In this document: piece by piece, positions 990 to 26,184 of the stretch
Numbering within the stretch: position 1 is the first letter of the stretch
Layout: every line of letters starts with the position of its first letter
Assembly (NCBI GenBank): GCA_020630435.1
Contig: JAHDBJ010000014.1
Location: forward strand, 62,001-126,000
Source of the DNA: Saprospiraceae bacterium
GTDB lineage: Bacteria > Bacteroidota > Bacteroidia > Chitinophagales > Saprospiraceae
Direction: 5' to 3'
Length of the DNA stretch: 64,000 nucleotides
Program-made: the position numbers and the translations under genes
The notes under the pieces: model-generated
Seen by the model: only the letters and a program-made list of their open reading frames with translations
Told to the model about the DNA's origin: nothing
Database searches by the model: none

Positions 990-1012
990 CTATCTTTATT
1001 ATTGTTTATCCA

Positions 1013-1051
1013 CTTATAAATAATTGAGCATTCTATTTTTTAATAGCTTCA
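1013..1051 (+). repeat. Degenerate right half of the palindromic element family
   Basis: This stretch matches the right end of the palindromic element found complete at 36335-36479 (shared core TTCTATTTTT followed by an AGCTTCA end). It lacks the left half and has several substitutions. It sits between the decayed fragment and the HD-domain gene. Confidence 0.55.
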
Positions 1052-1117
1052 AGGGCAATTTCTCCAAGTGTGTATCTCCAATTGATTTTTTTTAAGCATG
1101 ACAAGTATACTTTTATA

Positions 1118-1753: not shown

Positions 1754-1786
1754 CAAGAAAGATTTTTTAATATTGATATATGAAAA

Positions 1787-2374
1787 ATGATTAGAAATTT
1801 ATTATTTATAATAAATTTTCTATCCAATAGGAGTTACATTATTCGAAGAACACCAAATCGCATTTTGACAAAAGACTTTAGACATATATTCAACACCTAT
1901 TATTCTCCTTTGTGTAACTATGCTACAAAGATCATCCATGATGATAATAAGGCTGAAGATATTGTACAGGCTTTGTTCATTCAATTATGGGAAAATAAAA
2001 AATTAGAGACTGTAGATAAACTAGAGCCTTTTTTATTACGCAGCACTAAATTTAAATGTATCGATTTTTTACGTTCTAAAACACGCCAACGAGAGGTGAA
2101 TGTTCAAGAATTACCAGAAGCTATAAATGATACAGATTCTTCAATCGGAGAAGAAGATATAGAACCCTTATTGCATTTTTTTGCTGCCAAACTCCCTCCA
2201 AAAACACGTCAAGTTTTTTTACTAAGCAGAGAAAAAGGACTTTCCTATAAAGAAATTTCTGCTCAATTAGGGGTGTCAACAAAAACGGTTGAAAATCAAA
2301 TGGGCACTGCCTTGAAGAAGATGAGAGTACTTCTAAAAGAACACAAATTTTTCTCCTTAATACTTTTTTTATAA
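1787..2374 (+). CDS. ECF RNA polymerase sigma factor (FecI/Bacteroidota type)
   Basis: A 195-residue sigma-70 family factor of the extracytoplasmic-function class, with region 2 followed by region 4. Region 2 begins around FRHIFNTYYSPLCNYA (residues 32-47) and includes the DDNKAEDIVQ and LWENK segments. Region 4 is the C-terminal helix-turn-helix around YKEISAQLGVSTKTVENQ. It probably directs RNA polymerase to the uptake genes downstream and is held by the FecR-like protein encoded at 4921. Three genes lie between the two, whereas fecI and fecR are usually adjacent. The first 25 or so residues are not conserved-looking, so the true start may lie further in. Confidence 0.88.
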   Translation: MIRNLLFIINFLSNRSYIIRRTPNRILTKDFRHIFNTYYSPLCNYATKIIHDDNKAEDIVQALFIQLWENKKLETVDKLEPFLLRSTKFKCIDFLRSKTRQREVNVQELPEAINDTDSSIGEEDIEPLLHFFAAKLPPKTRQVFLLSREKGLSYKEISAQLGVSTKTVENQMGTALKKMRVLLKEHKFFSLILFL

Positions 2375-2530
2375 AAAAAATTAGGACGCCATTAGGGGTA
2401 GCCTTTCTTTTGTTCGACATATAGTTGTACAGAACATAATGCTATTTGTTTTACTAAACTTAAAAAATGTTCTGAGTTTGATCAAGACTTTTAATAAGTA
2501 CACTTTTTAAAAACAAAAGAAAATAGAATA

Positions 2531-3235
2531 ATGAAAAAGGTAATAAGAATATTAATACTTACAGTATGTAGTCCGATGCTATTATGGGGACAAGAATCAA
2601 ATCCTAGAGCGATTAAATACGGGGTACATTATAGTCAAAACTTTGCCCAACAACTTTATCATTCGCCATCAAATAAAGAATATGGAAAATCTATAACACG
2701 GACTTTGTATACTTTTGGCGTAGGAGTTAATGCCGAAAAACCAATAAACGATCAATTAAGTTTGAACGCAGCGATAGGGTATCAACAGAAAGGAAGTCGA
2801 GATTATGCACCTTCTTTTAATGCTGAAACAGATGGTATAAAAATGCGAAATAGATTTGATAATATAACCCTATCTTTTAATCCTATATTATACCTTAATA
2901 AAAAAACAATAAGACCTTATATACTAGGGGGATTATCCGCTAATTTATTACTGAATCGTAGAGCGGATGAATCTAATGATGATTATATCAATTCAAGATT
3001 ATATTATCATATCCCCACCAACGGAGGACTTTCAGAAGAAACAGAATCCTTCAAACGACTAGTATTGGGTTATGAAGGTGGTTGGGGGCTTAGAATAAAA
3101 AATCGATTTGCGATTGAGGGAAAAATACAATATGACATAAATCCTGCGTATAGTTCTGATAATCTAGAAATTAAAAACTTGCTTTGGACGATTAATCTCA
3201 AATTTGATTTACAAGGGATATTGCCCAGAAGTTAA
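2531..3235 (+). CDS. Small outer-membrane beta-barrel protein
   Basis: A 234-residue protein with a signal peptide ending near WGQES (residues 1-21), followed by alternating hydrophobic/polar strands typical of an eight-stranded OmpA/OmpW-like barrel (for example LNAAIGYQQKG, PYILGGLSANLLL, WGLRIKNRFAIEGKIQY). No catalytic motif is visible. It is the first of three small envelope genes placed between the sigma factor and its presumed anti-sigma factor. This suggests, but does not prove, a role in the same signalling or uptake locus. Confidence 0.65.
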   Translation: MKKVIRILILTVCSPMLLWGQESNPRAIKYGVHYSQNFAQQLYHSPSNKEYGKSITRTLYTFGVGVNAEKPINDQLSLNAAIGYQQKGSRDYAPSFNAETDGIKMRNRFDNITLSFNPILYLNKKTIRPYILGGLSANLLLNRRADESNDDYINSRLYYHIPTNGGLSEETESFKRLVLGYEGGWGLRIKNRFAIEGKIQYDINPAYSSDNLEIKNLLWTINLKFDLQGILPRS

Positions 3236-3322
3236 AATAATAAACAAACATTCATTTATGATCTCCCCAAAAAAGCCCCTTAAACCTACGTAATTATTTC
3301 AGTCACATAAACAAAGAATATC

Positions 3323-3937
3323 ATGAATCCATTAAAATTGATTTTATTGGGCCTGGTCGCCCTATGCACATTATTTACAAGTTGTGAAGAAGAAAACTTA
3401 CAATTTCAAATCGAACCAAGACCGCCATCACCTTTTCAACTAGAATATTCTACTATCACACCTCAAGGTACATATTCAAAAATATTAGAGTGTCCACACT
3501 TAGTATCAGTTACGATGAGGTGGGAAGAAAAAGATGATGGTATTTTATTAGAAAAAACAACATACTATCAAGATGTATTAGACAACAATCAAAAGGTTCA
3601 GTTTAGGATTGGTTATGTAAAAAAAGAATCAAATAAAGATTTATTAGAGCTTAAAGAAGCGACTATTGAAGGACGCTCGTCTGGTTCTGAATGGGCATAT
3701 AAAGACAAACAAGATGAAGTCAATAGATTTTATAAAGACTATGAACGTGTTATTATTCAAATTGAAGATGAATCCAAGGTATATACTATCAATGATAATA
3801 TGTTCACGGTAGAGAGTGTACAAGTCGCCAGTAATGATGAAATTCGATTATGGTTGACGATGGATGTTGAGGCTGGTACTAGAGACGGTAGAGGATATTA
3901 TCAGCTTGTAGGAAGATTTATACAATCAAATTTATAA
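3323..3937 (+). CDS. Hypothetical lipoprotein
   Basis: A 204-residue protein with a short hydrophobic leader and a lipobox-like LFTSC at residues 17-21, so Cys21 is likely lipidated. The mature part is rich in beta-strand-like segments and charged residues and resembles no family I recognise. It lies between two small beta-barrel genes in the sigma/anti-sigma locus, on the same strand with gaps of about 90-150 bases. A surface or periplasmic accessory role is an inference from position only. Confidence 0.6.
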   Translation: MNPLKLILLGLVALCTLFTSCEEENLQFQIEPRPPSPFQLEYSTITPQGTYSKILECPHLVSVTMRWEEKDDGILLEKTTYYQDVLDNNQKVQFRIGYVKKESNKDLLELKEATIEGRSSGSEWAYKDKQDEVNRFYKDYERVIIQIEDESKVYTINDNMFTVESVQVASNDEIRLWLTMDVEAGTRDGRGYYQLVGRFIQSNL

Positions 3938-3979
3938 TTAACCACATTTACGAGTTCCTTAAAAAATCAAACACCTTTT

Positions 3980-4061
3980 AAGCAATTATCTCCTAAATCA
4001 AAATAGAGATATGATTGAGTCGTATGGAATAACATTTTGAGGTAGGAGAAATTGCTTTTTT
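3980..4061 (+). terminator. Possible long-loop hairpin terminator
   Basis: AAGCAATT..CTCC near 3980-3994 can pair with GGAG..AATTGCTT near 4045-4056, followed by a T run to 4061. The loop is long (about 50 bases), so termination is only a suggestion. It lies between the lipoprotein and the next barrel gene. Confidence 0.35.
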
Positions 4062-4089
4062 AGAAAATTAGTTTAAAAAATTAAAAATT

Positions 4090-4773
4090 ATGAGACACGT
4101 ATTAACTTTAATTATTTCAATACTTTTTATTAACACCAATTTTGCACAATTATCAATAGGGATTAATATTGGGTCAAGTATGCCACAAGGTATATATGCT
4201 AAGAATAATCTAGATGAAGAAAATGCTAGATTTGCTAAGATAGGCTTTACTGGAGAATTGGACTTTAAATGGTATTTATCCAAAAATTTTGGATTGCAAA
4301 GTAGAATGGGACATACGGTACATGGATTTGATATAAAAGGACTAGAGTCAGATGACGAAACAATGATTATAGCGAATAATATGGATCCATACCGATATAC
4401 TTACCTTACTTTAGGACCATCTATTAGAGTCGGCGAAAATAAATTAGCACTCAGTATAAATCCATTTATAGGTACAGTTTTAAATCATGGGTACTCTTGG
4501 AATCTTGATGATGCTGATTTTCCAGAATATGGTTTTGAAGCTGATTTTGAAAGTCAAACCTTATTGTATTTTGGAGGATATATTGATATTTCTTATGATA
4601 TAAAGGATAAATTTTTTCTTAATCTTTCTGGAGGATATAAAACAACAAAATCAATAGATGAAAGAGCTTATATCAAGCATAATAATGAAAATATAGGAGA
4701 AGTCGACGCAATGGAAGATATTGGTACACGAAATAACTTTGATGTATTAATAGGGATAGGGTATAGATTTTAA
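4090..4773 (+). CDS. Small outer-membrane beta-barrel protein
   Basis: A 227-residue protein with a signal peptide (residues 1-19, ending TNFAQ) and a pattern of amphipathic strands ending in the aromatic C terminus GIGYRF, as expected for proteins inserted by the BAM machinery. Segments such as FKWYLSKNFGLQSRMGH and LSINPFIGTVLNHGY resemble the PorT/OmpW-like barrels common in Bacteroidota. The substrate is unknown. It precedes the FecR-like gene by about 150 bases and is separated from it by a hairpin. Confidence 0.65.
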   Translation: MRHVLTLIISILFINTNFAQLSIGINIGSSMPQGIYAKNNLDEENARFAKIGFTGELDFKWYLSKNFGLQSRMGHTVHGFDIKGLESDDETMIIANNMDPYRYTYLTLGPSIRVGENKLALSINPFIGTVLNHGYSWNLDDADFPEYGFEADFESQTLLYFGGYIDISYDIKDKFFLNLSGGYKTTKSIDERAYIKHNNENIGEVDAMEDIGTRNNFDVLIGIGYRF

Positions 4774-4787
4774 ACCCTTTTATCAAT

Positions 4788-4827
4788 AGAGAGATAGGAT
4801 AGAAGCCTTCTACTTTATCTCTCTTTA
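4788..4827 (+). terminator. Hairpin after the second small barrel gene
   Basis: AGAGAGATA at 4788-4796 is complementary to TATCTCTCT at 4816-4824, with a 19-base loop and a short T run. This would be a modest intrinsic terminator separating the barrel gene from the FecR-like gene. Confidence 0.45.
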
Positions 4828-4920
4828 CCAATAAATACTTAGAATTGAAATTTTTTTTATAGAAAACTTGCCAAGATGAAATTAGAGTATATTATTGATT
4901 AAAACCTTATCTTGTGGAGT

Positions 4921-5841
4921 ATGGATATTTATAGTTTATTGTCTAAATATTTTCTAGGAGAAGCAACAGAAAAAGAGAAAGAAGCAGTTGAATCGTTCAA
5001 AAAGAACAATTCAAAAGAGTTTACTCTATTGTCTAAAGTTTGGGAAAGAGACAATATCAAGGTAAAAGCATTTAATACACAAAAGGCTTGGAATAAAATG
5101 GGCTTAGATGTATCTGTTGAATCAAAGCCTAAAGTTGTTCCCATAGGTACTATCCTTAGAAGTGTTGCTGCAATTGGTCTATTACTCCTAGGGGCTTTTT
5201 TGGTTTATCGACAGTTCGCAGCTCCTGAGACTATTGAAATGCTACTAGCTCAAACAAGCACTGAAGAGCGGAATAGACAAGTAAAATTATCAGATGGTAC
5301 GACTATTTTTTTAAATAGAAATTCAAAATTACACTATCCTAAAACATTTGCGTCGGATGGAAGAAGGGTATCTCTAGAAGGGGAGGCATTCTTTGATGTC
5401 GCAGAAAATCCTAAAAAACCTTTTATTATAGAAACGACTCATTCTAAAATAACTGTACTAGGCACATCATTTAACGTTAATAGTAACCAACAAAAAACGA
5501 AAATTTCCGTAAAAACAGGAAAGGTAAAAGTGAATTCTGTCTATAATCGGAAATTTGTAACCTTAACAGCAGGGGTATCTGCCGTTTCTTCTTCCAAGGA
5601 GTTAATTGCATTTAAAACGCAAGATAATAATGTTACAGCATGGAAAACTGGAAATTTTGTATTCAAAGAAAAACCAATAAATGAAGTTATTCAAGCATTG
5701 AATACATACTACAATGGGCAAATTGAATCCTTGAAACAAAATGCGAATTGTTCTTTTACGGGGACATTTAAAGAAGCAGCCTTACCTGAAGTGCTTAAAG
5801 TTATTCAATTAAGTTGCGGGATCAAACTCAAAACAAAGTAA
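4921..5841 (+). CDS. FecR-family anti-sigma factor
   Basis: A 306-residue inner-membrane anti-sigma factor. The N-terminal cytoplasmic part (residues 1-75, starting MDIYSLLSKYFLGEATEKE) would bind the sigma factor. One transmembrane helix follows near residues 80-98 (SVAAIGLLLLGAFLVY). The periplasmic FecR domain contains the typical RQVKLSDGTTIFLNRNSKL, EGEAFFDV and VLGTSFNVN blocks, and the C-terminal STN-like end (FTGTFKEAALPEVLKVIQ) contacts the receptor. I preferred the ATG at 4921 to a TTG nine bases earlier. The stop lies 3 bases before the receptor start, so the two are co-transcribed. Confidence 0.93.
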   Translation: MDIYSLLSKYFLGEATEKEKEAVESFKKNNSKEFTLLSKVWERDNIKVKAFNTQKAWNKMGLDVSVESKPKVVPIGTILRSVAAIGLLLLGAFLVYRQFAAPETIEMLLAQTSTEERNRQVKLSDGTTIFLNRNSKLHYPKTFASDGRRVSLEGEAFFDVAENPKKPFIIETTHSKITVLGTSFNVNSNQQKTKISVKTGKVKVNSVYNRKFVTLTAGVSAVSSSKELIAFKTQDNNVTAWKTGNFVFKEKPINEVIQALNTYYNGQIESLKQNANCSFTGTFKEAALPEVLKVIQLSCGIKLKTK

Positions 5842-9762: not shown

Positions 9763-10141
9763 GGGGGTGTACTGGAATCGACAGGAGAGATTCTTGACGT
9801 AGTATAAGCATGTCGGAGAATGATAGTTTACTCCGTTAATAAATGACTACCAAAACAATTTAATTGGCGAACCACGTTTTGCCATGGCTGCCTAATTCAA
9901 GGAATTAGAAGCCTTTGTGTCGTGCGCTTGATGCCTGATACACAGCGTGCCACACATCAAACAAACCCTCAGGCTAGTTGTATAGACCTTTCCTGACTAT
10001 ACAGCGAAACTTTAAGGAATACGGTAGTAGATCGATTGGTCTTTTGTTCTGCCCACTACCCGACAATCTAACAGGAGACTAAGCATGTAGAAGGCTCTTC
10101 AAAGCTTTGACTGGACGAGGGTTCGACTCCCTCCACCTCCA
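9763..10141 (+). ncRNA. ssrA: tmRNA (one-piece), tag GEPRFAMAA
   Basis: tmRNA rescues stalled ribosomes together with SmpB, whose gene lies at 51802. The acceptor stem pairs GGGGGTG (9763-9769) with CACCTCC (10134-10140), with one G-T pair. The TACTGGAATCGACAGG 5' domain and the T-arm GAGGGTTCGACTCCC are both present. CCA is not encoded after the discriminator A at 10141. The resume frame reads GEPRFAMAA from GGC at 9866 to the TAA at 9893-9895. It has the shape of Bacteroidota tags, which start GE and end in A(L/M)AA. Pseudoknots fill the rest but I did not fold them. Confidence 0.95.
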
Positions 10142-10223
10142 CTTCGTGAGACTATGAGACATTTCTAATATTGTTTCATAGTCTCTTCTTTTTGAGGAGA
10201 TTGCAGCGATTACACCATTAAGT
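10138..10223 (+). repeat. 86-bp direct repeat, copy A (candidate attachment site)
   Basis: This segment starts in the last four bases of ssrA, covers its terminator and continues into the recombinase C-terminal coding sequence. A second copy lies at 16614-16699 in the same orientation. By eye the two differ at 8 of 86 positions. The pair brackets the 6.5-kb island and is the best candidate for left and right junctions of an element integrated at the 3' end of ssrA. Confidence 0.7.
10148..10192 (+). terminator. Intrinsic terminator of ssrA
   Basis: GAGACTATGA at 10148-10157 pairs with TCATAGTCTC at 10176-10185, extendable by three further pairs, and is followed by TTCTTTTT. It sits just after the tmRNA 3' end. 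The same DNA, read on the minus strand, encodes the C terminus of the recombinase remnant. Confidence 0.8.
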
Positions 10224-10784
10224 AAAGGTGTTCGACAAGTCTGAGTTTCTTGGTCTATATAAAAACCTAATGGAAAGATAGCTTTTAGCAATTTTGATTT
10301 AATTTCAGAACTGCTTTTTTTATATAATTCATCCAAATTTAAAAGAAAATCCATTACTTGATTGATAATAACACCTTGATTATCAATTGTTCTTCGTAGT
10401 TCTAATAACTTTCCCTTTTTTTCACTAATCCTCTTATTTACAGCGTTAGACATTCTATTGAAATCTTTCAGGCTCAAATCCTCCAAAAGTAAATTACCGA
10501 AATCATTATCCAACAACTCGCTCAACAAGTCAATGCCCTTATCTTCCAAACCATCGCTCAACACACTATGCAGAATTTGGTGATGGGAATGAGGGGTTTT
10601 TAGTATATTAACTATGTCACATTTTTAAATTCTGTTATTTTTTTTACTTTGAAAATTACTTGTAATTGTCAATATAAAAAGAAACTTCTTGTTTTTCTTC
10701 CCCCTAATTTTTCCAAATTGATTTTTTGCTAGTGCTTTTGTGTAAATAATGAAAGCTAGACTTATTATTTAAAATTTTAATGTT

Positions 10785-12869: not shown

Positions 12870-13838
12870 TTATTTGATAATTCCAAGATGCAAAATTCTC
12901 CCTCCAGCCTGATTTACAGGGTTAACACTTTTACCAATAACTATCCCTTTTTCAGGAGAAAAATACTCTTTTATAACATCCCCAAAAACATTTCTAATGG
13001 TTGCTATCTTTTCACCTTTTTTTACAACTTTAGTAACATCTGGATAAACTGTAAGTAAGCCTCCTGTATCTGTATAAATCCAATAGGACTTTTTACAAAG
13101 AATAGTATCATTAGGTGATTTTTCTTCAATTTTTGAATTTGTGATCTCCAAATATCCCAACAAATTGCGTATTCCTATAAGCCCATCATTTATCATCCCT
13201 TTTTGGAATAAGTTAGGATTTCCTATTTCAAGTGTTATAGCAGGAATATCAAGTTCATCGGCTGTGCCTCTTAATGTTCCATCACTTGGAGGATTATGCA
13301 CAATTATTTGAGCATTTTGCAAAAGTGCCATTTTACGTACAACTTCATCGCTCATATCTGCTCTTACATAGTATGAGTTTATTCTTCCATTACTTGCCGT
13401 GTGTAAATCTACTAAAAAGTTAAATTGTTTAATTATCTTATTGACCACACGCCAAGCATAGACTTCACTTGCTTTTCCATTCGGTTTACCAGGCATTATG
13501 TGGTTTAAATCTGTTCCGTCCAAAAATCGTCTTTTCTTTCTTAAAAATGAAGGCACATTTACTATTGGAATTCCTACAATTGTCCCTTTCAATTTTTTAA
13601 CATCAATTTCATTAAAAAATTTTTGAATCACAGGAATACCATTTAATTCATTTCCATGAACAGCAGCTGTAATTCCTAAAACTTTACCCTTCTTTTTTCC
13701 TTTAGCCACTATAATTGGTATATAAACAGGGACTCCCATTCCATCTTTCACAATTTCCAACCAGCATCTACTTATCTGTTTGCTCGGAATTTTTTTGAGA
13801 TTTAATCTTTTTATAATCTTTATAGGTTCTCTTTCCAT
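12870..13838 (-). CDS. Succinylglutamate desuccinylase/aspartoacylase-family deacylase
   Basis: A 322-residue M14-like zinc amidohydrolase of the AstE/ASPA family, which removes an acyl group from an N-acyl amino acid. The zinc ligands are visible as His and Glu in AAVHGNELNG (near residue 60) and His in the FLVDLHTA segment. A catalytic glutamate is plausible in PAITLEIGNP. The C-terminal beta domain (TGGLLTVYPDVTKVVKKGE) has the lipoyl-like fold usual for this family. It is the last gene of the three-gene operon, starting 9 bases after the GshB-like gene. The substrate is unknown. Pairing with a RimK/GshB-type ligase suggests trimming or recycling of a ligated amino-acid conjugate. Confidence 0.85.
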   Translation of the reverse strand: MEREPIKIIKRLNLKKIPSKQISRCWLEIVKDGMGVPVYIPIIVAKGKKKGKVLGITAAVHGNELNGIPVIQKFFNEIDVKKLKGTIVGIPIVNVPSFLRKKRRFLDGTDLNHIMPGKPNGKASEVYAWRVVNKIIKQFNFLVDLHTASNGRINSYYVRADMSDEVVRKMALLQNAQIIVHNPPSDGTLRGTADELDIPAITLEIGNPNLFQKGMINDGLIGIRNLLGYLEITNSKIEEKSPNDTILCKKSYWIYTDTGGLLTVYPDVTKVVKKGEKIATIRNVFGDVIKEYFSPEKGIVIGKSVNPVNQAGGRILHLGIIK

Positions 13839-13847
13839 TTTAATACA

Positions 13848-14855
13848 TTATTGAAGTTTAGAATGTTTTAAAAAATACCTCCATATTAAATCAATAGCTT
13901 CTTCTACTAAAGGCAATTTTTTTAAACTTGCTATTTGGGGTAGTCCTCCTACACTGGTAGTATTGATTTCTGACAAAACCCTTTCTCCTTTATCTCCAAC
14001 CAATGTATCTACACCATACATTGCAATACCCATTTTTCCTAAAATAGGGTTAATTTGTTCAATCATTTGATATTCATTTTTCTCAACTTTTGTGATATGT
14101 GAAGTCCCTCCCATTGCTACATTACAAACCCAAGAATTTTTAGGAGGCAATCTTAAAGATGCTCCTAATACTTTTCCATTTACTACTACAATTCTCTTAT
14201 CACCTTCAGCTACATTTTTTAAGTATTTCACTCCTAGTAGTGGTAAATCTTTAATTTCCAGCCTACTTATATAATTTCTAAAACTCAATTGATCATTTCC
14301 TATTAAAACTTCGTCATTCTCTATTTTAACAATACCTCTTCCTCCATATCCCTTCAAAGGCTTTAGAACTATAGGAAACTTTTTTTTAAATGTTATAATA
14401 TCCTCTTTTGATAGACAAATTTTCATTGGAGGACAAAATTTTTCAAAATTCATTAAAAATGCTTTACTCCCAGTTTCATAAATCCCCTTAGGATTGTTAA
14501 TAATGATAGTTTCTTTAAAAGTATTTTCTATAAAATACAAAAAAGATTTACTCAAAGGAGGAGGCAATCTAAGCCAAATTAGGTCATAATTGGAGTATGA
14601 TGCTTCCTTAAGATTTTTAGTTAAATAATATCCATTTTTAGTAAATTGAAAATCCTCCTTCACTTGATTCACAAATAACTTAGATAATGGCTTTTTATTA
14701 AAGAAACTTATATTCTCTTTATTTCCTCTTGAGGCTATATCTATTTTTTGGGTCAATGAATGACCTAACATTACTCTCATAAAAGGATATAATGAATTTT
14801 CTTCGCTATGGTTTGTATGATCTGTTAGCACTAAAACATTATACTTTTTTTTCAT
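13848..14855 (-). CDS. GshB/RimK-like ATP-grasp ligase
   Basis: A 335-residue protein with a glutathione-synthetase-type ATP-grasp fold. The ATP-binding lysine and glycine-rich loop are in PIVLKPLKGYGGRGIVKIE (about residues 165-183). The segment EGDKRIVVVNGKVLGASLR follows, and the metal-binding end LSEINTTSVGGLPQI has the Glu-x-Asn pair. Such enzymes join a carboxylate to an amine through an acyl phosphate. I chose the ATG at 14855; a TTG one codon upstream is also possible. Its start overlaps the previous gene's stop by one base (TGATG), which indicates translational coupling. GshB itself is not implied: no gshA is nearby, and sequence alone cannot give the substrate. Confidence 0.8.
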   Translation of the reverse strand: MKKKYNVLVLTDHTNHSEENSLYPFMRVMLGHSLTQKIDIASRGNKENISFFNKKPLSKLFVNQVKEDFQFTKNGYYLTKNLKEASYSNYDLIWLRLPPPLSKSFLYFIENTFKETIIINNPKGIYETGSKAFLMNFEKFCPPMKICLSKEDIITFKKKFPIVLKPLKGYGGRGIVKIENDEVLIGNDQLSFRNYISRLEIKDLPLLGVKYLKNVAEGDKRIVVVNGKVLGASLRLPPKNSWVCNVAMGGTSHITKVEKNEYQMIEQINPILGKMGIAMYGVDTLVGDKGERVLSEINTTSVGGLPQIASLKKLPLVEEAIDLIWRYFLKHSKLQ

Positions 14856-16294
14856 CAACTCAGCTTTATTTCATCTAATAGGTTCTTATCATTATTTAGG
14901 CTCTTAAAGAGCCGCATTCTAAATTTACCTTGAGTATTCATCAACATCTTAGCCATTTTATCGATAGCAACCATAGATAACACTGTTTGAATATATGCTT
15001 CGATTAAATCGTCTAATCCAACTCCAAGTTTATTAAAATCTCTTCTATCCATTAATACCAATCTATTCGTATCACTTCCCCATGTCCCATCACTATTTTT
15101 ATAGGACAAATTGGTACCTAGCATACCCCAACTATCTGTTCCATTTTCTATATTATCAACTAATGGCTTTTTAGCTCTACGAGCATAAGTACATAATGGC
15201 TTTATCCCAGCTTCTGTTGCGCTGACCATCATTCGGATGTCTGCAACAAAGGTTTGATTCTTTTGATTAGGGATAGTGCCGACATGATATAATTTCCCAG
15301 AGGAAGTAATACTACTCCAATTGGAATTCCCTATTAAACTTTGAACAATAAATAAATCGTATTCAAATTCTAATTCCATAAATTTATTCAGTTCATCTTC
15401 TGTAACGATAGTATAAACCCCCTGCCCCGCATTACTGTAAGGCACTTTTATTACAGCATGACCGCCCATTTTTTTTACCCAAATAGGCACTTCATTTTTT
15501 CGAACATCCCATATAGTTTCAGGTACATTTATTTTTAAACCGTATTCTTGTATTTCAGAATTAAATATATCATATGCCTTTGCTGCCACCATTTTGTTTC
15601 TACCTCCTGCTAAACATGCTATAACAGGGTTTAATATTTTAGTTTTTGAATAGAGAGGCAAGCGATTCCAAGGCTTTTGGGTAAGATAACGAAAGGCAGC
15701 TCGTATTGGAATTAGTTGTTCTTGTTCATCCCTAATATACATAATACCATCCTTAAAAAGAACTCTAGGGTTTGGATCATCTTTATAAAAATCGATATAA
15801 TACACAGGCTCTTTCATAACATCTGCAATTACCTTTGCATATCCAGATGCCTCCATTGGGTTTTTGTCATAAATTACTGCTAGTCCACCTTTTATTTTAT
15901 TTCTAAGATTTTTTAGATAGGGTTTAAAAGTTCGTTCAATCATTAGTTTATAACTTCCCTGTTCTTGATTATCATCAATTAAGGGCATAGATTTTTGTCC
16001 AGAAGGACAGGAGTTATTTTCTATGACAACCATCTGCCTCTTTCCTCCAGCTGAGGTGACATTCAGTAAGTCAGCTCCTGCCCATAGAAAATATTTGGAT
16101 TTATAGTTTAATATCTCACGTAATTTACCTTTATCAACTTTAGGGTGCATATGACAATACCGAGTGATAAGTCTTTCTTTGTCTAAGTTTAAAAAGAAGT
16201 TAATCATTGGATGAATTGTAGCATTTAAAGCTTTTGGATACCAGTGATTATGAGCTTCAAACTCATTAGGGTTAATGATTCTTAGATTACTCAA
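14855..16294 (-). CDS. ATP-grasp-like protein, first gene of the operon
   Basis: A 479-residue soluble protein. The C-terminal two thirds look like an ATP-grasp: AVIKVPYSNAGQGVYTIV (near residue 285-300) resembles the ATP-binding lysine and glycine loop, and DLFIVQSLIG resembles the following hinge. The N-terminal part (IENNSCPSGQKSMPLID) is conserved-looking but I cannot name its family, and I do not see a clear Glu-x-Asn metal site. The apparent start is TTG at 16292-16294, with no in-frame ATG until residue 30. It is the promoter-proximal gene of the operon and is coupled to the GshB-like gene. I infer a second ligase acting in the same short pathway. Confidence 0.65.
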   Translation of the reverse strand: MSNLRIINPNEFEAHNHWYPKALNATIHPMINFFLNLDKERLITRYCHMHPKVDKGKLREILNYKSKYFLWAGADLLNVTSAGGKRQMVVIENNSCPSGQKSMPLIDDNQEQGSYKLMIERTFKPYLKNLRNKIKGGLAVIYDKNPMEASGYAKVIADVMKEPVYYIDFYKDDPNPRVLFKDGIMYIRDEQEQLIPIRAAFRYLTQKPWNRLPLYSKTKILNPVIACLAGGRNKMVAAKAYDIFNSEIQEYGLKINVPETIWDVRKNEVPIWVKKMGGHAVIKVPYSNAGQGVYTIVTEDELNKFMELEFEYDLFIVQSLIGNSNWSSITSSGKLYHVGTIPNQKNQTFVADIRMMVSATEAGIKPLCTYARRAKKPLVDNIENGTDSWGMLGTNLSYKNSDGTWGSDTNRLVLMDRRDFNKLGVGLDDLIEAYIQTVLSMVAIDKMAKMLMNTQGKFRMRLFKSLNNDKNLLDEIKLS

Positions 16295-16491: not shown

Positions 16492-16625
16492 ATGGCAAAA
16501 AAAAAGGCGACAGCAGGTATTAATTCTAAATTTAGAAAAGATACCGCAAGTATTTAGACCATATTGATGCGTATATGCTGCGTCCGATGAGGATTGATTT
16601 TTATCACCTTTTGTCCATTTCGTGA
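16492..16625 (+). pseudogene. Small gene remnant with frameshift
   Basis: An ATG at 16492 opens MAKKKATAGINSKFRKDTAS and then hits a TAG. A one-base shift continues as YLDHIDAYMLRPMRIDFYH and ends at TGA 16623-16625. Both halves look protein-like, which suggests one short gene broken by a frameshift. I do not recognise it. Confidence 0.3.
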
Positions 16626-16699
16626 GCCTATGAGGCATTTCTAATATTGTTTCATAGTCTCTTTTTTTTGAGGAAATTGCAGCAATTATACCCTTAAGT
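16614..16699 (+). repeat. 86-bp direct repeat, copy B (candidate attachment site)
   Basis: Second copy of the repeat at 10138-10223, beginning at TCCATTTCGTGAG. The hairpin that terminates ssrA in copy A is present here with one stem mismatch. The minus strand again encodes the recombinase C-terminal peptide. It marks the distal end of the island, about 100 bases before hsdM. Confidence 0.7.
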
Positions 16700-16796: not shown

Positions 16797-18344
16797 ATGG
16801 CAAAAAACAACAATCAAAGTTTTGAGAAAAAACTCTTTAAAGCAGCAGACAAGCTCCGTAAAAATATTGACGCTGCGGAATACAAACACGTCGTACTCGG
16901 TTTAATCTTTCTAAAATTCATCTCCGAAGCCTTCCAAGAGTTGTACGACAAACTAGAAGCAGAGGACTGGTCAGACCCTGAAGATAGGGATGAGTACATT
17001 GCCGAAAATGTCTTTTTTGTACCGCCTACAGCTCGTTGGTCGTACATACAGGCACAAGCCAAACTTCCTAATATTGGTGTGACCATTGACCAAGCAATGG
17101 AAGCCGTAGAAAAAGAAAATAAAAACCTCAAAAACGTACTGCCTCAAGTCTATGGTAAAGCCAACCTTGACAAAACAGCTCTAGGAGAACTCATCGACCT
17201 AATTTCCAATACAGAACTACAAGCAGAGAATGAAAACTCCAAAGATTTATTTGGTCGAGTGTATGAATATTTTCTAGGAGAATTTGCGAGTGCGGAAGGT
17301 AAAAAAGGCGGTCAATTCTATACGCCAAAAGCCATCGTCAAACTCATGGTGGAGATGATCCAACCTTTCAAAGGTAGAGTCTATGACCCTGCAAGTGGCA
17401 GCGGGGGAATGTTTGTAATGAGTGAAAAATTCGTGACCAAAAATAAAGGAAACATTAAGGACATCACGGTCTATGGACAAGAGAGCAACCAAACCACTTG
17501 GAAACTCTCTCGAATGAACCTAGCCATTCGGAGCATCAACTCCAAGTTTGTCCTTTGGAACACGGAAGGGAGCTTCCTCAATGATGCTCATCCTGACCTC
17601 AAAGCGGATTACATCCTAGCCAATCCACCCTTCAATCAAAAAGAATGGGGTGTGGACATCTTACAAGAAGATGGACGCTGGAAACATGGCATCCCCCCAA
17701 AAGGAAATGCCAACTTTGGTTGGATGCAACACATGCTCTACCATCTATCGCCTCGGGGCGTGATGGCTACGGTTCTATCCAACGGTTCTTTGAGTTCCAA
17801 TACTTCTGGTGAAGGCGATATTCGGAGCAACTTAGTAGAAAAAAATCTAGTAGAGTGCATCGTCGCTCTGCCCAAACAACTTTTTTATAATACAGGCATC
17901 CCTGCTTGTATCTGGATTTTGAGACGAGAGAAAGACCGTGCCGAAACCCTCTTTATTGATGCTTCCGAAATGGGCTATATGAAAGACCGCACGCATCGAG
18001 GACTGTCGGATGATACGGACGAAAAAAAGCAAGGCAACTTCCACGAAAACGGCATGGGCGACATTCAAAAAATAACGAACACCTACCTCAATTGGCGAAA
18101 CCAAGAAGACTACGAAGACATCAAAGGCTATTGCAAATCGGCTAGCCTAGAGGATATACAAAAACACAGCCACGTCCTCACCCCAGGGCGATATGTGGGC
18201 ATACCTGATGAAGAAGACGATGGCATCCCCTTCGAGGATAAAATGGCGGACTTGACGGCTACTCTCAAAACTCAAATGGAGAAAGAAGCTGCTCTAAATA
18301 CTGAAATCAAAACGCAACTTGCTAAAATTGGATTTAAACTATGA
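16797..18344 (+). CDS. hsdM: Type I restriction-modification DNA methyltransferase subunit HsdM
   Basis: A 515-residue N6-adenine methyltransferase of the type I M subunit family. It has an N-terminal HsdM_N helical domain (about 8-135) and the SAM-binding motif YDPASGSGGMF (residues 196-206). The catalytic NPPF motif is at 276-279 and the family's GGQFYTPKAIV segment at 171-181. With HsdS it protects host DNA; with HsdS and HsdR it forms the restriction complex. Its stop overlaps the hsdS start (ATGA). Base composition is visibly richer in G+C than the neighbouring island genes, consistent with separate acquisition. The length is normal and all motifs are intact. Confidence 0.96.
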   Translation: MAKNNNQSFEKKLFKAADKLRKNIDAAEYKHVVLGLIFLKFISEAFQELYDKLEAEDWSDPEDRDEYIAENVFFVPPTARWSYIQAQAKLPNIGVTIDQAMEAVEKENKNLKNVLPQVYGKANLDKTALGELIDLISNTELQAENENSKDLFGRVYEYFLGEFASAEGKKGGQFYTPKAIVKLMVEMIQPFKGRVYDPASGSGGMFVMSEKFVTKNKGNIKDITVYGQESNQTTWKLSRMNLAIRSINSKFVLWNTEGSFLNDAHPDLKADYILANPPFNQKEWGVDILQEDGRWKHGIPPKGNANFGWMQHMLYHLSPRGVMATVLSNGSLSSNTSGEGDIRSNLVEKNLVECIVALPKQLFYNTGIPACIWILRREKDRAETLFIDASEMGYMKDRTHRGLSDDTDEKKQGNFHENGMGDIQKITNTYLNWRNQEDYEDIKGYCKSASLEDIQKHSHVLTPGRYVGIPDEEDDGIPFEDKMADLTATLKTQMEKEAALNTEIKTQLAKIGFKL

Positions 18345-19576
18345 GTGAAATAGATAATATACCAGAAGGTTGGGTGGAGACTGAAATTGGAAACATTCCT
18401 ATAGATTGGAAATGTGTAAATTTTATTGAAGTAGGGGATGATAATGTAAAACGACCATTTATTTCTGGTCCTTTCGGCTCAAATATTTCTTCAAAATTTT
18501 TTGTAGAATCTGGTGTTCCTGTTATTAGAGGAAATAATTTAAAGTTAGGAATTGATAATAAATTTAATGATGAAGGATTTGCTTATTTAACTAAAGAAAA
18601 AGCTAATGAACTTGGAACTTACGCAGAAAAGGATGACATCATTTTTACTGCTGCGGGTACAATTGGGCAGGTCGGTATTATTGAAGAAAAAAATAAGTAT
18701 AGTAAATATATTATATCAAATAAGCAGTTAAGAGCAAGGCTTAACAAAAAAAATGTTTTACCTATATATTCTTACTATTGGTTTTCATCTCCTATTATGG
18801 AAAAGATTCTAAAAAAAAGAAATACTGGTAGTACAATTCCATTAATTAATTTAACAATATTAAAAACTTTACCATTACCACTTCCCCCTCTCCCAGAACA
18901 AAAAGCCATAGCCTCTATTCTCACATCATTTGATGATAAAATAGAACTCCTACAAGCCCAAAATAAAACCCTAGAAACCATCGCTCAAACCATTTTTAAA
19001 GAGTGGTTTGGAAAATATCAAATTGGGGATGATTTGCCTGAAGGGTGGAGAGTTGGGGAATATTCCGATTTAGTTAAATTATCTTCAGGAAAAGGAGTTA
19101 AAAAATCTGATTATATAAAGGATGGAAAATATCAAATAATTGGAGCAAATGGTAAAATAGGTAGATTAAATAAATTTTTAATTAATGAAAAGGTTATTTT
19201 AACAGGACGAGTTGGGACACTTGGGACAGTTTTTATGTTAAATAAACCTGCTTGGATATCAGATAATGTATTAATTAATAAGCCATGTATTGAAAATTCT
19301 TTTTACTTCACATATTTTACTTTAAAAGGATTTAATTTTTTTGCTTTAAATACTGGTAGTACACAACCTTTAATAACGCAAAGAGACTTAAAATCTGTTA
19401 ATATCATAATTCCTGAATCAATTATTTTAAAAAAATATGAAGAAAAATCTAATATACTATTTTCTAAAATAGAAATCAATACTGCACAAATCCAAACCCT
19501 CAAAAAAACAAGAGATACCTTATTGCCTAAGCTAATGAGTGGGCAGCTACGAGTACAAGATAATGATATAAGATGA
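18341..19576 (+). CDS. hsdS: Type I restriction-modification specificity subunit HsdS
   Basis: A 411-residue specificity subunit with two target-recognition domains. The first runs about 5-180 and ends in LPLPPLPEQKAIASIL. A conserved helical spacer follows (FDDKIELLQAQNKTLETIAQTIFKEWF, about 203-230). The second domain, starting LPEGWRVGEYSDL, is followed by the distal helix ending LPKLMSGQLRV. The recognition domains are markedly more A+T-rich than the spacer and than hsdM, the usual sign of exchange of these domains. The recognition sequence cannot be predicted by eye. It overlaps hsdM by 4 bases and the transposase gene downstream by 4 bases. Confidence 0.95.
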   Translation: MSEIDNIPEGWVETEIGNIPIDWKCVNFIEVGDDNVKRPFISGPFGSNISSKFFVESGVPVIRGNNLKLGIDNKFNDEGFAYLTKEKANELGTYAEKDDIIFTAAGTIGQVGIIEEKNKYSKYIISNKQLRARLNKKNVLPIYSYYWFSSPIMEKILKKRNTGSTIPLINLTILKTLPLPLPPLPEQKAIASILTSFDDKIELLQAQNKTLETIAQTIFKEWFGKYQIGDDLPEGWRVGEYSDLVKLSSGKGVKKSDYIKDGKYQIIGANGKIGRLNKFLINEKVILTGRVGTLGTVFMLNKPAWISDNVLINKPCIENSFYFTYFTLKGFNFFALNTGSTQPLITQRDLKSVNIIIPESIILKKYEEKSNILFSKIEINTAQIQTLKKTRDTLLPKLMSGQLRVQDNDIR

Positions 19577-20133
19577 ACCGATACCATCCCAAAATACATC
19601 ATCGGCGATCGATTCGATTAAAAGGCTATGATTATGCACAGGCAGGATTGTATTTTATAACCATTTGTGTACAACATCGGGTGCATTTGTTTGGCAAAAT
19701 AGAAAACAACAAATTGCAATTAAACCCCGCAGGAAAAATGATTGATAAATGGTATTGGGAATTGGAAAATAAATTTAAAAATATCAAATGCCATGAATAC
19801 ATCATCATGCCAAATCATTTCCACGCCATCATCGAAATCGTAGGGTCAGACCTACGTGTCTGCCCTGAAAAATTGAACGAACACGAAACCAAACCATTGG
19901 CCGAACACACAGGTTCGCCCCTACATCGGGTGGTACAATGGTTTAAAACAATGACGACCAATGAATATATTCGGAATGTCAAAAACAAGGATTGGAAACG
20001 ATTTGATGGTAAATTATGGCAACGTAATTATTGGGAACACATCATCCGTAATGAAAAATCATACCATAATATTTCCAATTATATCATTAACAATCCTTTA
20101 AAATGGTCGGAGGATAAACTTTATTCAAAATAA
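19573..20133 (+). CDS. REP-associated tyrosine (Y1) transposase, RAYT
   Basis: A 186-residue HUH endonuclease of the IS200/RAYT type. The metal-binding HUH motif is PNHFHAII (near residue 80). The likely catalytic tyrosine is in the SYHNISNYIINNP helix near residues 156-165, and the C-terminal NPLKW is typical of RAYTs. The start overlaps the hsdS stop as ATGA and hsdR begins 10 bases after the stop, so it sits inside the restriction operon without breaking it. Two REP-like palindromic repeats lie within the coding sequence (19840-19865 and 19901-19924), encoding the insert between the HUH motif and the tyrosine. It appears intact. It may mobilise short palindromes rather than itself. Confidence 0.88.
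   Translation: MNRYHPKIHHRRSIRLKGYDYAQAGLYFITICVQHRVHLFGKIENNKLQLNPAGKMIDKWYWELENKFKNIKCHEYIIMPNHFHAIIEIVGSDLRVCPEKLNEHETKPLAEHTGSPLHRVVQWFKTMTTNEYIRNVKNKDWKRFDGKLWQRNYWEHIIRNEKSYHNISNYIINNPLKWSEDKLYSK
19840..19865 (+). repeat. REP-like repeat inside the RAYT gene, forward copy
   Basis: A 26-base unit starting GTAGGGTCAGACCTACG and ending TGCCC. It resembles the widespread GTAGGGGCGAACC..GTGTTCGCCC type of repeat, with internal self-complementarity. A second, inverted copy lies 35 bases downstream. Confidence 0.65.
19901..19924 (-). repeat. REP-like repeat inside the RAYT gene, inverted copy
   Basis: Read on the minus strand this unit starts GTAGGGGCGAACCTGTG and ends TTCGG. It matches the consensus of the forward copy at 19840-19865 at most conserved positions. 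Together the two form an imperfect inverted pair within an open reading frame. Confidence 0.65.
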
Positions 20134-20142
20134 TAATCCAAT

Positions 20143-23100
20143 ATGCTCAACGAAGACCACATAGAACAATCCTTTATCCAGCAATTAGTTGCTAAGGGGT
20201 ACGACTATTATACAGGAGCGTCCATTGCTCCATACAGTGATAACCCACAGCGAGAGACCTATGATTCCGTGTTATTGGAGCAGCAATTCAAAGCAGCCTT
20301 ACGACGGCTCAATCCTACATTGCCCGAATCCGCAAGAACAGAAGCCTACCAGAAAATATTGAACCTTGGTACAGAAAATCTCATGGAAAACAACGAGCGT
20401 TTCCATACCTTTTTGAGTACAGGTGTTACCGTAGAATATACCAAAGACGGTCGTACCAAAGGCGTAAATGTTCGTCTACTTGATGTAGAGCATCCAGAAA
20501 AAAATCACTTTTGGGTGGTGAATCAGTTGGTCGTTAAAGAGAACAATAACGAGGCGAGGTTTGATGTCGTCATATTTGTGAACGGGCTGCCGTTGGTGTT
20601 TGTAGAACTAAAAAATGCCACCGATGAAAAAGCGACCTTAAGAAAGGCCTATACCCAAATACAAAATTATAAAAAAGCCGTTCCTAGCATTTTTTATTAC
20701 AATGCCCTCTGTATCATCTCCGATGGTATTGACGCAGCAACATCGAGTGTGTCCGCTCCTTTTTCTCGATTCCTAGCATGGAAGTCACCCACTCCAACTG
20801 CCAATGAAGTTAGAACACCGCTACAAATATTGATCGAGTATTTATTGGATAAAAAAGTACTGGTAGAGTTGATTCGTTACTGTACCGTTTTTGAACAAGA
20901 AGAAAAAAAGGACGAAAAGACAGGCTTAATCTCACAAGTCAAAATCAAAAAAGTAGCCGCCTATCATCAATATTATGCCGTTCAAAAAGCCGTAGAACAA
21001 ACCATTCGAGCCACACACGGCATAGATGGAGATAGAAAAGTAGGCGTGATTTGGCATACACAAGGAAGTGGTAAGTCTTTGTCTATGGTTTTTTATTGTG
21101 GACAAATCATTACCCATCCAAAGATGGAAAATCCAACCATCGTGATGCTGACCGATAGAAATGATTTGGATGATCAATTGTTTGGTACATTTGGCAATTG
21201 TATCAGTTTGCTACGACAAAAACCCACACAAGCACAGAGCAGAGAGCATATCAAGGAATTGCTCAAAGTATCGGGAGGAGGTGTGATATTTACGACCATT
21301 CAAAAGTTTTCACCCAAAGAAGGAAATGTATATGATACCCTTTCGGAGCGTACCAATATTGTCGTGGTTGCCGATGAAGCACACAGGAGTCAATATGGTT
21401 TTAAAGGACGTGAAACCACAATTAAGGATGAGCATGGAAATGAAATTGGTTCAGAAACCAGATATGGAAATGCCAAGTATCTACGAGAAGCTTTACCCAA
21501 TGCTTCCTATATCGGATTTACAGGCACGCCCATAGAGAAAGAAGATAAATCGACTCCAAAAGTCTTTGGAAAATATATTGACATTTACGACATCAAACAA
21601 GCCGTAGATGATGGAGCAACCGTACCGATTAATTACGAATCTCGACTCATCAAAGTCAAACTTGATCCAAAAACGGCAGCAGCCATAGACGAAGAAATCG
21701 AAGCGATAGAAGGAGCAACCCCCGAGCAATTAGAAAAAGCCAAGAAAAGAACCGCCAATATAGATGCCGTTGTTGGGCAAACCGATCGGATGAAAGATGT
21801 TGCCAAAGATATAGTGGCCCACTTTGAGGCAAGGCAAAAAGTGTTTGAAGGCAAAGCGATGATCGTTGGAATGACTCGTTTGATATGTGCCAAACTCTAC
21901 AATGAGATTATCGCTTTACGTCCAGAGTGGGATCATGCAGACAAGGATAAAGGCGTGATAAAAATCATCATCACCAGTTCTTCGGACGATGATCCCATCC
22001 TCCAACCGCATCACACCACCAAGCAACAACGAAAGGATTTGGCAGTTCGGATGAAAGACCCCAATGACGAATTAAAGCTGGTCATTGTTCGGGATATGTG
22101 GCTGACAGGCTTCGATGCTCCAAGTATGCACACGATGTATATTGATAAAAAAATGAAAGGAGCAAATTTGATGCAAGCCATAGCAAGAGTCAACCGAGTC
22201 TATAAAGATAAACCAGGAGGATTGATTGTTGATTATATCGGAATTGGTCAAGACTTGCGAGATGCAATGGCAGTCTATCTACAAAGCGGTGGCGAAGGCA
22301 CACCCATTGTTGACATCAAAGAAGTCATTGTAGGGATGAAAGAAAAGTTTGAAGTCGTAGAGCAGATGTTCAATGGCTACGATTATTTGGCTTATTTTAA
22401 GGTGGATGTCTCCCAAAAATTGCAAGTATTGCTAGGAGCTCAAAACTTCATTTTAGCCAACGAACAATTAAAAGATCGCTTTTTAAAAGAAGTGACGATT
22501 TTGTCCAAGCTTTTTGCGATGGCAATTCCAAGTAAAGAAGCCGATGTCCTAAGAGAAGGTGTTGCTTTTTTCCAAGCCGTCAAAGCTAGGATTAATAAAT
22601 TTACTGGTACAAGTGTCAAATCAGATTACGAAGTCGAAACCGCTATTAAGCAAATTATAGATGATGCTTTAGCAAGTGATGGTGTGATTGATATATTCGA
22701 AGCGGCTGGAATAGAAAGTCCATCCGTTAGTATTTTGTCCGATGACTTTTTATTGGAAGTCAAAAATATGCGGCAAAAGAACCTAGCCTTTGAATTGCTC
22801 AAAAAACTACTCAGCGATGAAGTCCGAGTTCGAAAATCAAAGAACATTGTACAAGGAAAACGATTTTCAGAAATGCTAGAATCGGTTGTCAAACGTTACC
22901 ACAGTAATCAAATTGACTCTGCCCAAGTCATACACGAACTTTCAGAGGTAGCCAAAGAAATGCGACTCGAAGACAACAAAGCCGTTGACTTGGGATTGAC
23001 TTCTGAAGAATACGCTTTTTATAGTGTCCTTACGGAAAATGATTCTACCAAGATGTTAGACGATGATAAAATGAAAGAGTTGATTCATGTCATTGTAAAT

Positions 23101-23286
23101 ATTATCCGTAAAAATGCCACCGTGGATTGGAGCAAAAGAGACGATGTAAAAGCCAAACTAAGGCTAACTGTCAAAAAGGTTTTGATGCGTTACGGTTACC
23201 CTCCAGACTTAGCAAGACTAGAAGCCGATAAAGTATTGGCTCAAAGTGAGCAATTGGCGGATCGGTTTAGTCAGGAGGAACAATGA
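20143..23286 (+). CDS. hsdR: Type I restriction enzyme endonuclease/translocase subunit HsdR
   Basis: A 1047-residue restriction subunit. The N-terminal PD-(D/E)xK nuclease is seen as RFDVVIFVNGLPLVFVELKNA (about 140-160). The SF2 translocase has Walker A TQGSGKS (near 306-312), the DEAH box VVADEAHRSQ (near 409), motif III GFTGTPI, and the later motifs LTGFDAPSM and QAIARVNRV. The C-terminal part (about 780-1047) is helical and should bind the methylase core. The length is normal and there are no interruptions, so the restriction system looks active. It is the last gene of the hsdM-hsdS-RAYT-hsdR operon. The convergent gene ends 98 bases downstream. Confidence 0.96.
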   Translation: MLNEDHIEQSFIQQLVAKGYDYYTGASIAPYSDNPQRETYDSVLLEQQFKAALRRLNPTLPESARTEAYQKILNLGTENLMENNERFHTFLSTGVTVEYTKDGRTKGVNVRLLDVEHPEKNHFWVVNQLVVKENNNEARFDVVIFVNGLPLVFVELKNATDEKATLRKAYTQIQNYKKAVPSIFYYNALCIISDGIDAATSSVSAPFSRFLAWKSPTPTANEVRTPLQILIEYLLDKKVLVELIRYCTVFEQEEKKDEKTGLISQVKIKKVAAYHQYYAVQKAVEQTIRATHGIDGDRKVGVIWHTQGSGKSLSMVFYCGQIITHPKMENPTIVMLTDRNDLDDQLFGTFGNCISLLRQKPTQAQSREHIKELLKVSGGGVIFTTIQKFSPKEGNVYDTLSERTNIVVVADEAHRSQYGFKGRETTIKDEHGNEIGSETRYGNAKYLREALPNASYIGFTGTPIEKEDKSTPKVFGKYIDIYDIKQAVDDGATVPINYESRLIKVKLDPKTAAAIDEEIEAIEGATPEQLEKAKKRTANIDAVVGQTDRMKDVAKDIVAHFEARQKVFEGKAMIVGMTRLICAKLYNEIIALRPEWDHADKDKGVIKIIITSSSDDDPILQPHHTTKQQRKDLAVRMKDPNDELKLVIVRDMWLTGFDAPSMHTMYIDKKMKGANLMQAIARVNRVYKDKPGGLIVDYIGIGQDLRDAMAVYLQSGGEGTPIVDIKEVIVGMKEKFEVVEQMFNGYDYLAYFKVDVSQKLQVLLGAQNFILANEQLKDRFLKEVTILSKLFAMAIPSKEADVLREGVAFFQAVKARINKFTGTSVKSDYEVETAIKQIIDDALASDGVIDIFEAAGIESPSVSILSDDFLLEVKNMRQKNLAFELLKKLLSDEVRVRKSKNIVQGKRFSEMLESVVKRYHSNQIDSAQVIHELSEVAKEMRLEDNKAVDLGLTSEEYAFYSVLTENDSTKMLDDDKMKELIHVIVNIIRKNATVDWSKRDDVKAKLRLTVKKVLMRYGYPPDLARLEADKVLAQSEQLADRFSQEEQ

Positions 23287-23307
23287 TGACAAATTGAGCG
23301 CTAAAAA

Positions 23308-23371
23308 TAGCTTAAATATTGAGATACAATGACTTGTAAATAATTCATCATTCTATTTTTAAACAGCTTCA
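23308..23371 (+). repeat. Solo right half of the palindromic element
   Basis: A 64-base segment matching 36415-36478 of the complete element at all but three positions by eye (shared stretch AAATATTGAGATACAATGAC). The left half is missing. It sits between the convergent ends of hsdR and the cytochrome-like gene. Confidence 0.8.
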
Positions 23372-23383
23372 TTATGTGTTCGT

Positions 23384-26009: not shown

Positions 26010-26037
26010 AGTGATATAAAGTTATATTGAATAATAT

Positions 26038-26079
26038 GAAGTTGTTTAATAATTCATCATTCTATTTTTAAACAGCTTC
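26038..26079. repeat. Shrunken copy of the palindromic element
   Basis: The left arm GAAGTTGTTTAAT is joined directly to the right-end sequence AATTCATCATTCTATTTTT and the right arm AAACAGCTTC. The central part found at 36350-36430 is missing. It lies just upstream of the TSP3 lipoprotein start, so it may sit in that gene's 5' region. Confidence 0.75.
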
Positions 26080-26184
26080 TATGTATACCAATAGATAGAA
26101 TATTGATAGTACGCTCTCATACTAGAAAGTATTTAAGAGGGGTGATGTGACGAGAAAGAATGGAATTGGTTTTATATTTTATTG

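Follow-up and report, generated by a model that had tools for sequence, protein, structure and literature searches.

The 64,000-nucleotide stretch analyzed here, hereafter the window, comes from the genome of a Saprospiraceae bacterium (GenBank assembly GCA_020630435.1, contig JAHDBJ010000014.1, positions 62,001 to 126,000) and holds a compact set of three minus-strand genes, termed A, B, and C, which are arranged head to tail and are all intact in an open-frame analysis of the window. Gene A (14855..16294) starts with TTG and encodes a 479-residue protein that we place among the permuted ATP-grasp ligases on the basis of its modeled fold. Gene B (13848..14855) encodes a predicted ATP-grasp ligase of the GshB type, with 335 residues when read from the ATG at 14855 or 336 from the TTG at 14858, and gene C (12870..13838) encodes a 322-residue protein predicted to be a zinc amidase of the AstE/ASPA class, near DoeB. 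The TGA stop codon of A and the ATG start codon of B overlap by one base (TGATG), and the gap from B to C is 9 bases, exactly as described in a sequence-only reading of this window made before the present analysis. That reading had also placed the three genes inside the direct repeats of an island at ssrA, and this holds as well: the gene for the transfer-messenger RNA (tmRNA; ssrA, 9763..10142, plus strand) carries at its 3' end the left copy of an 86-nucleotide direct repeat (10138..10223, plus strand), which starts within the last five bases of the tmRNA, and the right copy, 91% identical to the left, lies at 16614..16699 (plus strand). Besides A, B, and C, the repeat pair encloses one gene with CUB and Por-secretion-tail domains. 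Because of this repeat, ssrA is presumed to be the site at which a small island integrated.

The protein encoded by gene A has no match in Pfam at E-values up to 1, its best NCBIfam score is 15 bits against a cut-off of 143, and neither phmmer nor a profile search of the PDB gave a usable sequence relative; a weak match to the RimK family in NCBIfam covers residues 254-327 (E = 0.012). The AlphaFold2 model (pLDDT 88, pTM 0.92), compared with known folds as the sequence-only reading had proposed, matches ATP-grasp ligases. Foldseek returned 29 matches at E ≤ 0.001 (TM-scores of about 0.23-0.52), all of them kinds of protein that we take to be ATP-grasp enzymes, with yeast glutathione synthetase and a putative glutathionylspermidine synthase on top and human glutathione synthetase close behind. 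VIA ranks the putative gamma-glutamylcysteine synthetase 3k1t first (Z 17.9 and rmsd 4.1 over 333 residues), ahead of a group of near ties comprising ArgX (13.8), YjfC (13.8), homoglutathione synthetase (13.5), LysX (13.5), Escherichia coli Gss (13.3), and YgiC (13.2). In an alignment of A relatives, the residues K283, S287, N288, G290, Q291, G292, and V293 of the glycine-rich ATP-grasp loop (residues 280-296; 15407..15457, minus strand) are invariant in all 42 rows, as are D75 and E92-x-N94 (residues 73-104; 15983..16078, minus strand), the roles of both being assigned by pattern rather than from coordinates. The second pattern resembles the D102 and E115-x-N117 that are invariant in YgiC, YjfC, and Gss, and D75, E92, and N94 are proposed to be Mg ligands, a role that we assume from the GspS/GSS structures. 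On the strength of the model, A is a permuted ATP-grasp enzyme whose family has no name.

Gene B can be assigned more directly. Its product matches GSH-S_ATP (PF02955) with 103 bits (cut-off 23), RimK with 31 bits (cut-off 21), and E. coli GshB (1gsa) at 6.9e-19, and the GshB residues K125, K160, D208, K209, R210, R225, N235, D273, E281, and N283 are retained in 72 or 73 of 73 rows. By sequence, B is thus of the GshB type and not of the RimK type. It shares with GshB the domain and the catalytic residues and differs from it in falling below both curated equivalog cut-offs in NCBIfam (146.5 versus 272 and 136.1 versus 299 bits). Elsewhere in the same genome, PF02955 matches one more gene, on contig C22.

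The product of gene C matches AstE_AspA_cat (PF24827) with 107 bits (cut-off 25) and lies near 3cdx, 3na6, and DoeB (6twl/6twm) by sequence. Every one of the 77 rows, including three paralogues, has H61, E64, R103, N112, H146, and E204; H61, E64, and H146 are the predicted zinc ligands, and the motif H61-G-N-E64 (13647..13658, minus strand) presumably binds the metal, as we assume from the AstE/ASPA class. All scores against the curated families of named enzymes remain below the cut-offs (DoeB, 61 versus 403 bits; aspartoacylase, 29 versus 180; AstE, 26 versus 306). The closest matches of the C model (pLDDT 91) are DoeB and similar folds at Z 31.6-33.8 (3cdx, 33.8; DoeB, 32.9), then CphZ at 27.7; mammalian aspartoacylase (16) and, from gamma-proteobacteria and Chromobacterium, enzymes that bear the name succinylglutamate desuccinylase (17.4-18.5) are more distant. 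C is therefore like DoeB and CphZ in fold and in its retained active-site residues and unlike DoeB in score. The parallel with the animal RimKL and aspartoacylase enzymes, which had been drawn from the sequence, is weakened by this ranking and by the GshB-type nature of B.

To what extent are the three genes a set? Relatives of A were sought in 84,980 species, one genome per species, with patterns derived from the A protein of the window, which favor close kin. The scan found 147 stretches encoding an A relative, and the best 80 of these, which were kept for the analysis of loci, all point to Bacteroidota, mostly of Saprospiraceae and Lewinella types. Among evenly drawn genomes, own genome included, A is present in 8 of 296 of the phylum and in 16 of 395 of the class, and its distribution is therefore patchy. 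The 80 scanned loci were joined by loci from 15 further genomes (a sixteenth, G614, was omitted) and by the window, giving 96 loci, not all of them independent: the A of L076 is the same as that of L120, and L003/L010 and L026/L032 are each two loci from one assembly. At least 2.5 kb downstream of A is available in 80 of the 96, the other 16 being set aside as short contigs. Of these 80, 66 hold A, B, and C, five hold A and C, one holds A and B, and eight hold A alone; variants include a B preceding A (L109), two B genes (L118), and a C that overlaps A (L112). The triplet is thus confirmed as a conserved set in many other genomes and is not peculiar to the genome of the window. Accordingly, neither of the two outcomes that would have undone the proposal of two ATP-grasp-type ligases and an AstE/ASPA-class hydrolase acting as a set, namely confinement of the triplet to this genome and membership of the 479-residue protein in a well-known family of unrelated function, was found. 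The existence of A-C pairs without B suggests that A and C form the core of the set and that B is an extension.

The neighborhoods of A in relatives provide the clue to a substrate. When the neighboring open reading frames of the 80 scanned loci were clustered, with no preselection of genes, the largest clusters were A (78 loci), B (67), and C (62), followed by arginine decarboxylase (ADC; 20), a deoxyhypusine synthase-like protein (DHS-like; 15), agmatinase (15), a small protein that we call S106 (11), and a DksA-like protein (11). The copies in locus L028 match Orn_Arg_deC_N, Arginase, and Deoxyhypusine synthase in Pfam, all above the cut-offs, and the agmatinase is accepted by NCBIfam (201 bits, cut-off 174). 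At least one of ADC, DHS-like, and agmatinase, at 50% identity or more, lies in the flanks of 24 of the 96 loci (20 of the 80 scanned and 4 of the 15 added, the window not among them), ADC being present in all 24; the chance expectation is about 0.18 of 96 flanks for one single-copy gene, assuming a genome of 5 Mb and with loci that are not independent. Sorted by hand, the polyamine genes fall into four arrangements: upstream and codirectional (5 loci: L006, L014, L112, L114, L122), divergent (6 loci: L007, L016, L036, L042, L043, L077), between A and B (11 loci: L020, L027, L028, L029, L034, L037, L039, L044, L045, L046, L049), and after C (2 loci: L033, L116). In L039 and L046, the order is A-ADC-agmatinase-DHS-B-C, with genes overlapping or at most 21 bases apart. 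On a quick tree of A, supported by SH-aLRT only and with short flanks scored as absence, the trait changes at least 14 times and occurs in many clades, some far from that of the window. The polyamine link in relatives is strong, and because the proximity recurs in different arrangements, it argues for a functional tie between A and the polyamine genes. In L122, the polyamine genes and A are separated by a gene (L122:4231-5751) whose product combines acetyltransferase with carbon-nitrogen hydrolase domains; L007, L032, and L053 hold mutually clustering proteins that resemble one another by eye.

Known systems suggest what such a tie may mean. The RefSeq name of both YgiC and YjfC of E. coli is peptide--spermidine ligase. 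A shares with Gss, YgiC, and YjfC the permuted ATP-grasp fold (Z 13.2-13.8) and the D...E-x-N pattern, and just as the ligase of Gss is fused to an amidase, ligases and an amidase stand together in A-B-C. The differences are considerable: A has no sequence or profile similarity to these proteins, including no Pfam match at E ≤ 1 to what we take to be the glutathionylspermidine synthase family (PF03738), A-B-C adds a second ligase of the GshB type, and C is an AstE-class metalloenzyme, whereas the amidase of Gss is a cysteine amidase. According to one report, glutathionylspermidine synthetase genes cluster with homospermidine synthase genes in beta-proteobacteria and one phage, and the DHS-like SpeY makes homospermidine (PMC9992855); in other bacteria, too, such a ligase sits among homospermidine genes. 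A second report describes a fungal ATP-grasp enzyme, Cp1B, that has no detectable sequence identity to others, has homoglutathione synthetase and YgiC/YjfC among its nearest folds, and belongs to the E-64 pathway, whose product is an acid-leucine-agmatine amide (PMC12568646). Cp1B, likened to A here by description only, resembles it in lacking detectable sequence kin, in its neighboring folds, and in a pathway product that carries a polyamine; it differs in being fungal and in that the second amide bond of its pathway is made by an ANL enzyme (PMC12568646).

By analogy with the peptide-spermidine ligases, the glutathionylspermidine synthetase clusters, and the E-64 pathway, we infer a polyamine substrate, an order of action of A and B, an acid partner, and a direction for C, and propose, with a confidence that stays somewhat short of even, that A-B-C is a reversible conjugation module, which would couple a polyamine to an amino acid or a short peptide and later set the polyamine free. 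The ATP-grasp ligases A and B would form the amide bond at the expense of ATP, with agmatine, putrescine, spermidine, or homospermidine as candidate polyamines, and the zinc amidase C would cleave it and return the polyamine, the purpose being storage, inactivation, or protection. Such a module would work like glutathionylspermidine synthetase/amidase, as its Bacteroidota counterpart, in which a new family of ATP-grasp ligase is paired with an unrelated amidase. A bolder version, which we regard as possible though doubtful, is that many Bacteroidota of the Saprospiraceae and Lewinella kind make a hitherto unseen peptide-polyamine, such as the amide of a dipeptide with spermidine, homospermidine, or agmatine, by means of this new family and without canonical glutathione synthesis, and that the metallo-amidase frees the polyamine on demand, in a trypanothione-like or polyamine-buffer system. 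The sequence-only reading had envisaged ligases and a hydrolase that make and recycle a small conjugate; this remains the best kind of explanation. The earlier interpretation is partly supported and now sharpened; it missed the strongest clue to the substrate, the polyamine neighborhood, which lies outside the window, in relatives. Neither the triplet nor its polyamine link was found described in a literature search that covered titles and the beginnings of abstracts, with subscription papers mostly outside its scope. A family that is conserved in many Bacteroidota and has no Pfam or accepted NCBIfam match now has a place in the ATP-grasp superfamily and a link to polyamine metabolism, and a metabolic module between repeats at the ssrA of one genome becomes readable from its relatives. 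If the proposal is true, conjugated polyamines gain a new class that has its own pathway of synthesis and release, and the three-gene set is open to direct expression and assay.

Several observations weigh against this proposal, and the first group concerns the fold of A. The Foldseek TM-scores are low (about 0.4 for the first matches), hhalign gives a probability of 1.3% for the A alignment against a three-row profile of YgiC, YjfC, and Gss, and the best VIA match, 3k1t, which is not among the 50 Foldseek matches listed, is annotated as a gamma-glutamylcysteine ligase and not as a polyamine ligase. The latter points to a different pathway, in which A and B would be a non-canonical pair of gamma-glutamylcysteine ligase and glutathione synthase that makes a glutathione-like thiol or a gamma-glutamyl tripeptide, with C degrading the product. 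In its favor, 3k1t stands 4 Z units above the next match, B is of the GshB type and retains the catalytic residues, the glutamate-cysteine ligase families PF04107 and PF04262 were not found in the window's own genome in searches with positive controls, and the neighborhood of A in L111-L114, L116, and L044 includes glyoxalase/FosB-like (VOC) proteins, of which the L111 copy alone was checked with a hidden Markov model (HMM). Nevertheless, we consider this pathway unlikely. The five loci with A and C and no B indicate that A needs no B nearby, a thiol leaves the polyamine genes unexplained, and A has no HMM match to 3k1t, the function of which is itself putative: at E ≤ 1, A shows no match to PF08886 (GshA), which we take to be the family of 3k1t. 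A genome search for PF08886 at E ≤ 0.001 gave nothing in the window's own genome and 0 of 20 in relatives, with controls also at 0 of 14. When 395 genomes of the phylum were searched at E ≤ 1, 35 had weak matches, none above the cut-off, with controls at 3 of 14, likewise none above it. In L111 and L113, the VOC protein is encoded between A and B.

Gene C raises a second difficulty. At the position that, by motif, we take to correspond to the carboxylate-binding Arg of ASPA and AstE, 63 of 74 rows of C (the 77 rows minus the three paralogues) have His and 11 have Arg, that is, mostly DLNH instead of the DLNR of the AstE/ASPA class, so that the specificity of C may vary. The residue appears to follow the presence of B (62 His and 4 Arg with B; 1 His and 7 Arg without it). 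This association is suggestive and is not claimed, since the independent pairs fall short of significance: of 6, an average of 3.8 go the same way and 0 the opposite way (median p = 0.125). The same residue bears on the alternative that the ligases make an arginyl dipeptide for arginine storage or salvage, from which C, acting like CphZ on beta-Asp-Arg, would free arginine for ADC and agmatinase. The close fold match of C to CphZ fits this alternative, as does the presence of ADC in every polyamine-linked locus, once alone between A and B (L020). Yet His replaces, in most rows, the Arg that presumably binds the carboxylate of the leaving group, the DHS-like and agmatinase genes point beyond arginine to polyamines, and the match of B to cyanophycin synthetase is 16 bits against a cut-off of 850, with none for A, all of which makes arginine storage distinctly improbable.

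The remaining points against the conjugation of a polyamine concern gene content. Neither B nor C follows A in 8 of the 80 loci, one of which (L052) has a C-like gene upstream of A, and 72 of the 96 loci, including the window, have no polyamine gene in the flanks examined, some of which are short. The decarboxylase and the DHS-like protein are closest to biosynthetic arginine decarboxylase (178 versus a cut-off of 369 bits) and to the homospermidine biosynthesis protein (110 versus 450 bits) in NCBIfam, and at scores below these curated cut-offs, their reactions remain putative. The window's own genome (5.1 Mb in 70 contigs), which has a single match to A, carries its ADC not beside A but on another contig, C59, and a DHS-like gene was not found there in a search run without a control. 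Contig C59 also holds S106, a carboxynorspermidine decarboxylase above the curated cut-off, a carboxynorspermidine-synthase-like gene below it, and a divergent arginase-family gene slightly under the agmatinase cut-off. Given the carboxynorspermidine genes and the DHS-like result, spermidine rather than homospermidine is likely the triamine of this organism. S106 links the polyamine set and the A set indirectly, since it stands beside ADC in this genome and within 1 kb of A in relatives.

S106 is a protein of about 85-130 residues, in most copies with an acidic tail, that has no Pfam match in the three copies scanned, and it may be a regulator or partner. It is encoded beside ADC on C59 (L108:8313-8648) and beside ADC or within 1 kb of A in L006, L015, L051, L111, L113, L114, L119, and L121; of the 8 loci among the 96 in which it lies within 1 kb of A, 6 have no polyamine genes in view. 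Its acidic tail and its association with A make S106 a possible target in another scheme, the tagging of proteins or peptides, in which A or B would extend a protein C-terminus and C would trim it, as RimK and RimB do. Consistent with this scheme, in L110 the A-C pair adjoins a true RimK (360 bits, above the cut-off), a RimB-like protease (below the cut-off), and a second AstE-like protein. Against it, B is of the GshB and not the RimK type, S106 is close to A in only the 8 loci, and its C-terminus is unconserved in 14 rows; tagging therefore seems quite improbable. Two ligase/hydrolase sets thus stand side by side in the L110 stretch (positions 1-5062), the protease being a retropepsin, and the stretch also holds CorA and, by eye, an MscS-like protein.

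The MscS-like protein, which follows C in L110, and the MscS-type channels encoded directly after A in L061, L062, and L064, loci that lack B and C, would fit a further possibility, that the product is a dipeptide osmolyte serving as a compatible solute. MscS neighbors occur in few loci, however, and no osmolyte gene was recognized among the 30 largest neighbor clusters, as judged from sequence starts, leaving this possibility with only a slim chance. Polyamine conjugation, by comparison, is the reading that we prefer.

The surroundings of the set in the window include other elements. Directly beyond the right repeat lie hsdM, hsdS, and hsdR of a type I restriction-modification system (16797-23286). 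Despite this adjoining system, a role of A-B-C in anti-phage defense was dropped, as PADLOC returned 0 families at E ≤ 0.001 for each of A, B, and C. In tblastn searches with A at E ≤ 0.01, no match was found in plasmids or phages, and of three stretches of viral contigs that fit the A pattern, none is a relative. An open reading frame that spans the 3' end of ssrA (10079-10564) resembles, on inspection by eye, a C-terminal remnant of a serine recombinase, without confirmation from Pfam, and a protein encoded between hsdS and hsdR bears a weak likeness to IS200 (Y1) transposases. Further downstream, 71-nucleotide direct repeats occur at 23305-23375, 26014-26084, and 36412-36482, the second and third copies being 63% and 93% identical to the first, over a spread of 13 kb.

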